Assembly (NCBI RefSeq): GCF_009720365.1
Contig: NZ_ML769316.1
Coordinates: forward strand, 462,228 to 526,227
Source of the DNA: Catellatospora paridis
GTDB taxonomy: Bacteria > Actinomycetota > Actinomycetes > Mycobacteriales > Micromonosporaceae
DNA: 64,000 bases
Direction of reading: 5' to 3'
Shown here: piece by piece, positions 60,157-63,012 of the stretch
Layout of the letters: every line of letters starts with the position of its first letter
Numbering within the stretch: position 1 is the first letter of the stretch
Notes under the pieces: generated by a model
Databases searched by the model: none
Seen by the model: only the letters and a program-made list of their open reading frames with translations
Told to the model about the DNA's origin: nothing
Position numbers and translations under genes: made by a program

Positions 60157-60321
60157 CGCACCCACCTCCTCCTGTGCCCACCTCCTACCCAGCACACACG
60201 CTCGCCTACCGCTCGCGAACCGCCGATATCCGCCACCGGCCGGGCTGCGCTAGATGCGAACCCCGGTTTGGCCCCAGCCCCCTGCGGGGTACGGCACAAG
60301 CATCGTCAGCAGGAGGCAGAA

Positions 60322-60456
60322 ATGTCGACCATCACCGACCCTCGCGATCCCGTGCAGCCCATGCCTGCACCGGAACCGCCCCAGCCCGCTCCCCCGCCCA
60401 CACCTCCGCCGCCGGCGCCGTCACCCATCCCGCCGGTCCCACCGCCGCCCATGTGA
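60322..60456 (+). CDS. Proline-rich microprotein
   Basis: A 44-residue peptide, about half proline, with PPPTPPPPAP and VPPPPM runs and no TM segment. Its start is convincing: AGGAGG at 5-nt spacing before ATG 60322. No homologous family was recognised. It could be a flexible ligand for SH3/WW-like or profilin-like domains, or a cell-wall linker; both are guesses. Confidence 0.55.
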   Translation: MSTITDPRDPVQPMPAPEPPQPAPPPTPPPPAPSPIPPVPPPPM

Positions 60457-61049: not shown

Positions 61050-61237
61050 GCCGTCCCCCTCTCCGATCGGGCTGTGCCCCGGTCCGCCCTCGGCAGTACC
61101 CCGCGACCCGGATTCGGGAAACGTGCCGGCGGCTTCGACAGCGTCACCGCCGTTGCCGGCCACCTCGCGGTCCACGTTTAGTCCGTCCGGAAGGTGGAAA
61201 AGATCAGGTTGTTGGGCGGACCACCAGGAGGAGCGGT

Positions 61238-61444
61238 ATGAGCATCAACGACGACGACCTGACGACCACGGGCGCAGCCGGGGCCGAAGGCCCGGACGAC
61301 GCCGGCGCCGACGAGCGGGTCGACCCGGCTGAGCACGACGGCGGAGCCGACGGGGGCGCGGACCTGGAGGGCCCCCTGGACGCCGGCGCCGACGACGCGG
61401 TCGACTCGGCTGAGCACGACGGCGGAGCCGACGGCGGTGCCTGA
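61238..61444 (+). CDS. Acidic two-repeat peptide, candidate modified-peptide precursor
   Basis: A 68-residue peptide with no basic residue except Arg27 and two histidines. A Thr/Asp leader-like region (1-17) is followed by two 24-residue repeats, G18-A41 and G45-A68, with 20 identical positions; both end AEHDGGADGGA and hold one His each (H33, H60). The second repeat ends exactly at the C-terminus. ATG 61238 follows AGGAGGAG. The gene overlaps the start of the JmjC oxygenase gene by 8 bp, so the two are translated in tandem. It has no cysteine or signal peptide. A precursor of a hydroxylated ribosomal peptide, or simply a protein substrate of the oxygenase, is the best hypothesis. Confidence 0.7.
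   Translation: MSINDDDLTTTGAAGAEGPDDAGADERVDPAEHDGGADGGADLEGPLDAGADDAVDSAEHDGGADGGA
61289..61441 (+). repeat. Tandem 81-bp-period repeat inside the acidic peptide gene
   Basis: Units 61289-61360 and 61370-61441 (72 bp each, 9-bp spacer) are highly similar in DNA and encode near-identical 24-residue segments, which indicates a recent internal duplication. Confidence 0.85.
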
Positions 61445-62654
61445 CCCGTTCGACCACGGCGCAGCGTCCGGCCTTGACGGGTCGGCGCTGCGCCGCTGCG
61501 TGGGAGACCCGGCGGAGTTCGAGCGCACCCACTGGGGCCTGCGGCCACTGTTACGCCGCGCCGACCGCCACGACGACCTGTTCGACCTCGCCGCCGTCGA
61601 TGAGCTGCTCAGCGAACGCGGCCTGCGCACCCCGTTCCTGCGTATCGCCAACGCCGGTGCCGTCGTGCCCGCGAAGAGCTTCACGGGCGGGGCAGGACTG
61701 GGCGCCGAGGTGTCCGACCAGATCCGCGACGACAAGGTCCTCGAACAGCTCGCCGCGGGTGCAACGTTGATCTTCCAGGGGCTGCACCGGATCTGGCCGC
61801 CGTTGCAGTCCTTCTGCCTCGACCTGGCCCGCGAGCTGGGCTGCGCCGTGCAGGCCAACGCCTACCTCACCCCCGCCGGGAACCAGGGATTCGCCACCCA
61901 CTACGACACCCACGACGTGTTCGTGCTGCAGGTCGCCGGTGTCAAGCACTGGCAGGTGCACGAGCCCGTGCACCCCGACCCGCTGGAGCGCCAGACCTGG
62001 GGCGGACACGCCGACGAGGTCGCCGCATGCGCCACCGGCGACCCGTACCTCGACCACGTGCTCGACGAGGGCGACGTGCTGTATCTACCCCGCGGCTGGC
62101 TGCACGCCGCTGCCGCCGTCGACCGCACCAGCCTGCACGTCACCCTCGGGCTGCGCCGGCCCACCCGGTACAGCATCGTCGAGGCGCTGCTCGGCCTCGC
62201 CGCCGAGGATCCGCGGCTGCGCGCCGGCCTGCCCCTGGGCCTGGACCTGACCGACCCGGTCGCCCTCGCACCCCATCTGGCCGCCACGGTGCAGGCACTG
62301 CAGGACTTCGCCGACAAGGCCGACGCCGAAAACGTCGCCCGCCGACTGCGACCCGGCCAGTGGACCGCGCACCGACCCGGTCCGGTCCGCCCCTTGGCGC
62401 AGGCCGCGTTCGCCGACACGCTCACTGCCGACAGCCGGGTCCAACCGCGGCCCGGTCAACGCCTCGCTCTCGGCCAGGGACGGCTGGAGCTCGCCGACCG
62501 GACCGTCGGCTTCCCGCCCGCATGCGACGACGCCGTGCAGACGCTGCTCGCCGGACCCGCCGTACGCGTCGGCGACCTGCCCGGCCTCGACGAGCAGTCA
62601 CAACTCGTGCTCGTGCGGCGCCTGCTGCGCGAAGCCGTCGTCATCCCCGCCTGA
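61437..62654 (+). CDS. JmjC-domain 2-oxoglutarate oxygenase (NO66/MINA/YcfD-like)
   Basis: A 405-residue cytoplasmic Fe(II)/2OG oxygenase. The cupin core shows NAYLTPAGNQGFATHYDTHDVFVLQ with Fe ligands H155 and D157, K170 in VAGVKHW as candidate 2OG anchor, and H223 in LPRGWLHAA as third ligand. A C-terminal helical/winged-helix region (about 245-405) resembles the dimerisation and substrate parts of ribosomal oxygenases. Those enzymes hydroxylate His or Arg in ribosomal proteins. The GTG start lies inside the upstream acidic peptide gene (8-bp overlap), pointing to a functional pair. Confidence 0.85.
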   Translation: MPDPFDHGAASGLDGSALRRCVGDPAEFERTHWGLRPLLRRADRHDDLFDLAAVDELLSERGLRTPFLRIANAGAVVPAKSFTGGAGLGAEVSDQIRDDKVLEQLAAGATLIFQGLHRIWPPLQSFCLDLARELGCAVQANAYLTPAGNQGFATHYDTHDVFVLQVAGVKHWQVHEPVHPDPLERQTWGGHADEVAACATGDPYLDHVLDEGDVLYLPRGWLHAAAAVDRTSLHVTLGLRRPTRYSIVEALLGLAAEDPRLRAGLPLGLDLTDPVALAPHLAATVQALQDFADKADAENVARRLRPGQWTAHRPGPVRPLAQAAFADTLTADSRVQPRPGQRLALGQGRLELADRTVGFPPACDDAVQTLLAGPAVRVGDLPGLDEQSQLVLVRRLLREAVVIPA

Positions 62655-62739: not shown

Positions 62740-63012
62740 ATGGCGAACAAGACGCGCTGGACCATCGATCTGGACATCGAAGAGGTCCAGGAGGAGCGGT
62801 GCACACGGGCGACGGCGAGGCTGCGCCGCGACGGGACGAGCCTGGAAAGCACGGGCACCGCCCACCGCCATCCCCGCGACCTGGACCTGGCACGCGTCGG
62901 CGACGATCTTGCGGCCGCTCGGGCCCTGGTCGAACTCGCCAGCTTGCTGCAGACCGACGCGGCCCAGGTCCTGGAGAAGTTCGGCGCGGCCCCGCCTGCA
63001 CCGACCGTCTGA
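62740..63012 (+). CDS. DUF1876 small protein
   Basis: A 90-residue cytoplasmic protein matching DUF1876: WTIDLDIEEVQEERCTRATARL, GTAHRHPRDL and VGDDLAAARALVELASLL. ATG 62740 follows GGGAGGTGG. Members are common in actinobacteria, sometimes near stress genes; the function is unknown. It lies 85 bp behind the oxygenase gene and may be co-transcribed. Confidence 0.8.
   Translation: MANKTRWTIDLDIEEVQEERCTRATARLRRDGTSLESTGTAHRHPRDLDLARVGDDLAAARALVELASLLQTDAAQVLEKFGAAPPAPTV

Follow-up and report, generated by a model that had tools for sequence, protein, structure and literature searches.

A gene pair that is widespread in actinobacteria, encoding a small Asp-rich repeat peptide and a JmjC oxygenase, suggests a kind of modified peptide not described before. 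The reading that we favor, with a probability of roughly 0.6, is that the pair is RiPP-like and that the oxygenase has its own leader-bearing repeat precursor, in which it hydroxylates many Asp residues. The copy studied here lies in a 64-kb stretch of Catellatospora DNA, which was analyzed as a whole and is referred to as the window (Table 1).

Table 1. Features of the peptide-oxygenase gene pair in the window
Feature	Coordinates	Strand	Basis
Precursor-like peptide gene, 68 aa	61238..61444	+	ORF, ATG start
AGGAGG ribosome-binding site of the peptide gene, 6 nt before ATG	61226..61231	+	read from sequence
Leader of the window peptide, MSINDDDLTTTGAAGA	61238..61285	+	
Repeat unit 1, EGPDDAGADERVDPAEHDGGADGGA	61286..61360	+	sequence comparison
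Repeat unit 2, EGPLDAGADDAVDSAEHDGGADGGA, ends at the peptide C terminus	61367..61441	+	sequence comparison
JmjC (PF08007) Fe(II)/2-oxoglutarate oxygenase, 405 aa, GTG start	61437..62654	+	Pfam, AlphaFold2, Foldseek
Iron ligands H155 (61899-61901), D157 (61905-61907), and H223 (62103-62105)	61899..62105	+	
C-terminal winged-helix-like domain, residues 334-404, candidate leader-binding domain	62436..62648	+	model secondary structure

The two repeat units of the window peptide are identical at 21 of 25 positions and recur with a period of 27 codons, and their DNA shows 85% identity across 74 nt. A preliminary description had reported a 68-aa peptide with two repeats (20 of 24 positions identical), a single His in each unit, a second unit reaching the C terminus, and an 8-bp overlap between the peptide and oxygenase genes, all of which were borne out by the ORF, the repeat comparison, and the sequence itself, with the overlap at 61437-61444. 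The peptide is under purifying selection, with dN of 0.06-0.10 versus dS of 0.25-0.46 in the six pairs formed by four congeners. Neither Pfam nor NCBIfam contains a match to it, and three other peptides of this type that were tried have no match in NCBIfam. The oxygenase has one match in the window's own genome, which is the window copy, and the three records that are 85-89% identical to it belong to the genus Catellatospora, family Micromonosporaceae. The 14-nt sequence CCAGGAGGAGCGGT in the region of the peptide ribosome-binding site (61224-61237) is found again at 62787-62800.

As assessed by homology searches, an oxygenase match at E 1e-30 or better is present in 125 of 200 Micromonosporaceae genomes (in G043 solely through a homologue of 34% identity), and one at E 1e-40 or better in 70 of 394 genomes of the class. 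The search for small repeat ORFs upstream of this oxygenase family, which the preliminary description had proposed, was carried out on these genomes. A first scan, for a same-strand ORF with at least two DGG[ATSVP][DNE] motifs no more than 1,500 nt upstream of the oxygenase, identified the peptide at 123 of the 131 distinct loci. The eight loci without a hit comprised a contig end at which a partial peptide is visible (L015), L054, and the loci of six homologues with 32-38% identity. All 28 new loci from the class search, one of them from a genome already counted, have the peptide. In the combined set of 215 loci, which takes in all matched genomes of the family and class and 17 of 38 further matched genomes, 203 have an Asp-rich small ORF immediately before the oxygenase gene in the same orientation, either as type A (at least two D[GAS][GAS]x[DNE] motifs, i.e. 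DGGA-type repeats; 181 loci) or as type B (other Asp-rich ORFs; 22 loci), and the remaining 12 comprise two contig ends and ten loci without a peptide. For oxygenases of at least 40% identity, the peptide is present in 183 of 186 loci (178 type A and 5 type B), the misses being the two contig ends and L054, which encodes an oxygenase of 52% identity and has a complete upstream sequence. At 30-39% identity, 29 loci yielded 3 type A peptides, 17 type B peptides, and 9 cases with no peptide by this rule. Under the identical rule, 482 control genes gave one type A and two type B ORFs, all three of which look unrelated.

The pairing also holds in the reverse direction. A search with a peptide profile produced matches in 50 of the 394 genomes, in 47 of which an oxygenase adjoins the peptide by coordinates; the other three matches are weak (E 1.6e-4 to 8e-4) and come from genomes without the oxygenase. 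When 40 loci (770,478 bases) were scanned in six frames, 33 contained a single ORF with at least two DGG[ATSVP][DNE] motifs, at the upstream side of the oxygenase, the other seven (L054-L060) contained none, and no such ORF was found away from the oxygenase. The only one in the window is the window peptide. The possibility raised at the outset that homologous oxygenase genes might consistently lack an upstream peptide thus runs contrary to what close homologues show, and the earlier claim that the peptide is a dedicated partner of the oxygenase stands. We regard conservation of the precursor-oxygenase pairing as strongly supported and very likely real, and the peptide is probably the substrate of the oxygenase. 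In a tree built by a quick method, in which several distant rows are long branches of unsure placement, L205 and L212 fall inside the repeat-peptide clade, and a longer acidic non-repeat peptide overlaps the oxygenase gene there instead.

The window oxygenase matches Pfam JmjC_2 (PF08007) at 2e-30, as do all 66 aligned homologues. The intact Fe triad noticed earlier was confirmed, none of the 66 aligned homologues deviating at H155, D157, or H223. An AlphaFold2 model of the protein (pLDDT 94.9) has NO66 as its best Foldseek match (E 1.3e-27, TM 0.67, ∼25% identity over the fold alignment), and the nearest solved structures by sequence and fold are NO66, MINA53, and YcfD. According to the model, the oxygenase has the fold of these ribosomal oxygenases, with the HxD...H triad and a winged-helix-like domain at the C terminus. 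The last ∼70 residues are modeled as short strands followed by helices, an order that resembles RREs as they are defined in the relevant section of PMC12710340. It is plausible, judging from the model, that this domain recognizes the precursor leader. At one locus (L062), the oxygenase match is split into two adjoining pieces in different ORFs.

The peptides combine a common start with variable cores. With a loose pattern, a leader-like start of the LxDDDI type was recognized in 176 of 216 loci, a count in which genome G510 appears twice (L195 and L227, both type A). The usual leader reads L-[NDS]-D-D-D-[IM]-x-T and is followed by Asp/Gly/Ala repeats, and some clades are devoid of an LxDDDI leader, e.g. 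those with peptides starting MSQSETEGPADGG. Cores differ between clades. In Micromonosporaceae the repeats are often EGPADGGA(N/T)PxG(H/Q/R)DGGADG(G/S)A, e.g. EGPADGGANPxGHDGGADGSA, other clades have (DGGA)n, and DADGTDGDATDTTDG-like or DASDADAADAD-like cores occur in other classes of the phylum. DGGA is present between 1 and 21 times per peptide (median 8); the two-core arrangement suggested for the window peptide holds for that peptide and lies close to the lower limit. Spacing between Asp residues is short throughout, most commonly 4 or 9 residues in type A and 2-3 in type B.

Which residue is modified cannot be read from conservation alone in type A peptides. The invariant columns of an 18-row peptide alignment are Met, Gly, Asp, and Ala, and within DGGAD the Gly and Ala vary no more than the Asp. 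This constancy would suit a precursor-enzyme pair with another reaction, whether desaturation, cyclization, oxidation of the Gly backbone, or an oxidation that sets up an Asp-Gly imide. We consider such chemistry unlikely, although it is the strongest of the competing explanations, because type B cores (DADGTDGDATD, DASDADAADAD) keep Asp, often with Ala, Ser, or Thr as the next residue, and because hydroxylase is the function named for most of the nearest solved relatives.

Somewhat less likely is that the peptide is a partner and not a substrate: it would then sit in the substrate groove as an acidic mimic or regulator, and the oxygenase itself would act on a ribosomal protein. The oxygenase shares its fold with ribosomal oxygenases, which modify ribosomal proteins, and a polyacidic partner could compete with these. 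Nevertheless, the varying repeat number, common leader, and clade-specific cores suit a substrate better than an inhibitor, and the oxygenase is patchy among relatives, occurring in 125 of the 200 Micromonosporaceae genomes. Moreover, the surroundings of some distant homologues suggest other kinds of peptide modification. Certain homologues at 32-38% identity adjoin other small peptides (L056, L057, and L216), of which the L057 peptide keeps an LNDDDI start. One JmjC homologue lies in a thiopeptide-like cluster (L055:668-10631), where its neighbors are YcaO, ThcOx, the N- and C-terminal proteins of a lantibiotic dehydratase, and a small precursor-like peptide rich in Cys and Ser. A further homologue in the 32-38% range, on a plasmid of Streptomyces clavuligerus (L266:6769-13184), is a cupin oxygenase that adjoins a 48-aa Asp/Pro peptide and has genes for an ABC transporter and an S9 peptidase nearby; L056 has a similar gene set. 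In L058 and L059, the oxygenase homologues come after a nitroreductase-family gene. Because distant relatives lie beside small peptides or RiPP-type genes, the wider oxygenase family seems to consist of peptide-modifying enzymes, and gene context points to a non-ribosomal substrate for the oxygenase.

The preliminary description had suggested that His or Asp is hydroxylated once per repeat. Hydroxylation of one His per repeat, as in the substrates of NO66 and MINA53, has in its favor that both of these nearest solved structures are His hydroxylases and that His is the commonest residue preceding DGGAD (293 of 540 sites). However, a conserved target His, as expected in the partner peptide of a His hydroxylase, was not found. 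Gln, Arg, Ser, Gly, Val, Thr, Glu, Asp, Asn, and Met also precede DGGAD, 49 of 172 peptides have no His at that position, and even within the genus Catellatospora it is Gln (L002) or Asp (L004) in one unit. In a set of 174 type A peptides (from 198 loci, leaving out peptides present at L104, L164, L171, L182, and L239), in which peptide starts are heuristic and two peptides exceed 220 aa, Asp is present in all 174 and His in 149; 25 have no His anywhere, or 33 when counted from the first repeat onward. Type B tails contain His in 6 of 22 cases and none in the other 16. The His half of the earlier suggestion is thus probably wrong, and we consider a His target improbable. Since Asp is found in all 174 peptides, and His is absent from the invariant columns and from many peptides, the target, if it is a side chain, is most easily Asp, and on these sequence comparisons Asp rather than His would be the likelier substrate residue. 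Finally, the idea that the small ORF is no gene, merely low-complexity GC-rich sequence beside an oxygenase gene, draws on a GC content of ∼72% and the GC-rich codons of Asp, Gly, and Ala but is ruled out by the reverse search, the one-to-one occurrence of the motif ORF in the 40-locus scan, dN well below dS, and the pairing relative to controls, with the common leader and ribosome-binding site also against it.

Outside Micromonosporaceae, the pair usually has a third member. Of 83 loci with 150 nt or more of sequence downstream of the oxygenase, 67 have a Suc_Fer-like gene as the next gene on that strand, and all three examples tried match PF06999 in Pfam. Examples of this gene are found at L268, L283, and L287, and at L281 a copy flanks the pair on either side. 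Inside Micromonosporaceae it lies beside the oxygenase in 2 of 128 loci, and a search of the window's own genome gave no PF06999 match. Yeast Aim32, which has a thioredoxin-like ferredoxin domain with a bis-histidinyl [2Fe-2S] cluster, is aligned with sucrase/ferredoxin-like proteins in the part of PMC8482512 that concerns them. A natural guess is that the Suc_Fer-like protein serves as a redox helper of the oxygenase.

In Micromonosporaceae, the pair stands alone. No larger conserved gene cluster was found around it among 39 loci with eight genes considered on each side; the commonest other neighbor families occur in 14-17 of the 39 loci, on the opposite strand as listed, and reflect the shared flanks of related genera. 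Within the family, the flanks change with genus. Next to the window pair lie a divergent gene for a Cu/Zn superoxide dismutase-like protein (PF00080; 60489-61175, − strand), a short Pro-rich ORF starting MSTITDPRDPVQPMPAPEPPQP with no family match (60319-60456, + strand), and, downstream of the oxygenase, a gene for an Rv2632c-like protein (PF08962; 62740-63012, + strand). There was no match in 50,697 phage records that would indicate a phage origin, and the 136 plasmid records that match are all below 60% identity.

An element of the form GGWWW-N15-17-GGGTAY (GGTTA-N16-GGGTAC-like) precedes the peptide in 68 of 117 Micromonosporaceae loci and 3 of 530 control genes. In a second group, made up of 58 loci that come mostly from other families, two carry it, and one of these two (L177) is in Micromonosporaceae; it is absent from the window's own upstream sequence. 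The element resembles SigB/SigF-type stress promoters. Because its count is inflated by relatedness, we do not take it as evidence for function.

Among characterized enzymes, NO66 (RIOX1), MINA53 (RIOX2), and YcfD are like the window oxygenase in their JmjC fold, HxD...H iron site, and C-terminal winged-helix domain. They act on ribosomal proteins, the targets named in the part of PMC6006756 dealing with them being H216 of RPL8, H39 of RPL27a, and R81 of Rpl16, whereas the window-type oxygenase gene is coupled to an Asp-repeat peptide gene. As far as the relevant portions of PMC12707348 and PMC12257519 describe them, the JmjC/cupin-like BipG, BpmG, and PbsQ hydroxylate precursor residues of biphenomycin-type RiPPs; the likeness lies in a JmjC or cupin-like oxygenase acting on a ribosomal precursor, but their target is ornithine within a multi-enzyme cluster, whereas here there is one enzyme and an Asp-rich repeat precursor. 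An update of RRE-Finder reports, in its relevant section, fish and algal proteins in which PF08007 is joined to an RRE-like fold and states that their closest bacterial homologues (∼30% identity) are in RiPP-like contexts (PMC12710340). Such proteins combine a PF08007 domain with an RRE-like winged helix, for which the modeled C-terminal domain of the window oxygenase is a candidate counterpart, and that section gives no precursor family, repeat, or reaction for them. Asp β-hydroxylation in a precursor peptide is described, in the corresponding parts of PMC13060819 and PMC13097080, for PesHI, an MNIO acting on Asp21, and for SmaO, an oxygenase of a graspetide cluster. The principle is thus already known from biphenomycin-type JmjC/cupin hydroxylases and from Asp hydroxylases of other kinds. 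Among the literature matches listed, a set to which most subscription papers do not belong, there is no description of the peptide-oxygenase(-Suc_Fer) system, the repeat strings DGGADGG and DGGADG gave no relevant match, and the searches made found no substrate assigned to actinobacterial members of the oxygenase family.

We propose that the pair is a minimal RiPP-like system of a precursor gene and a modifying enzyme gene. The precursor would consist of a short LxDDDI-type leader and tandem Asp/Gly/Ala repeats. The oxygenase would bind it, probably via the leader and the modeled C-terminal winged-helix-like domain, and would use Fe(II), O2, and 2-oxoglutarate to hydroxylate Asp side chains, most likely at Cβ, repeatedly along the repeats. 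In most relatives outside Micromonosporaceae, the Suc_Fer-like [2Fe-2S] thioredoxin-fold protein may hold the iron in its reduced state or work on the product. The finished peptide would be strongly acidic and bear many 3-hydroxyaspartates, and it might conceivably bind metal ions under stress, a guess that draws on hydroxyaspartate chemistry and on the Micromonosporaceae upstream element that the window lacks. Consistent with a RiPP, a small precursor-like gene is conserved as a pair with the gene for an enzyme of peptide-modifying type, and in most of the peptides a leader-like start precedes a core that varies between clades. It is unusual for a RiPP that no protease or exporter is conserved among the 39 Micromonosporaceae loci within eight genes on each side, and this counts against the RiPP-like reading, as do the peptides without an LxDDDI leader, the peptide-less L054, the 9 of 29 loci below 40% identity without a peptide, and the absence of the Suc_Fer gene beside the oxygenase in 126 of 128 Micromonosporaceae loci. 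More speculatively, and with considerable doubt, the peptides could be an undescribed, phylum-wide actinobacterial class that carries up to ∼20 3-hydroxyaspartates at regular intervals and acts as metal-binding polyanions in stress. The enzyme making them would be ribosomal-oxygenase-like, its ancestral partner would be a Suc_Fer-like ferredoxin, and ribosomal oxygenases would then lie within a larger peptide-modifying family.

The oxygenase family is known mainly for single hydroxylations on ribosomes, and the peptide gene beside nearly every close homologue offers a directly testable substrate for this oxygenase. If the proposal is true, a common actinobacterial peptide family would carry dense Asp modification, and the oxygenase would be a simple one-protein tool to modify repeat peptides.
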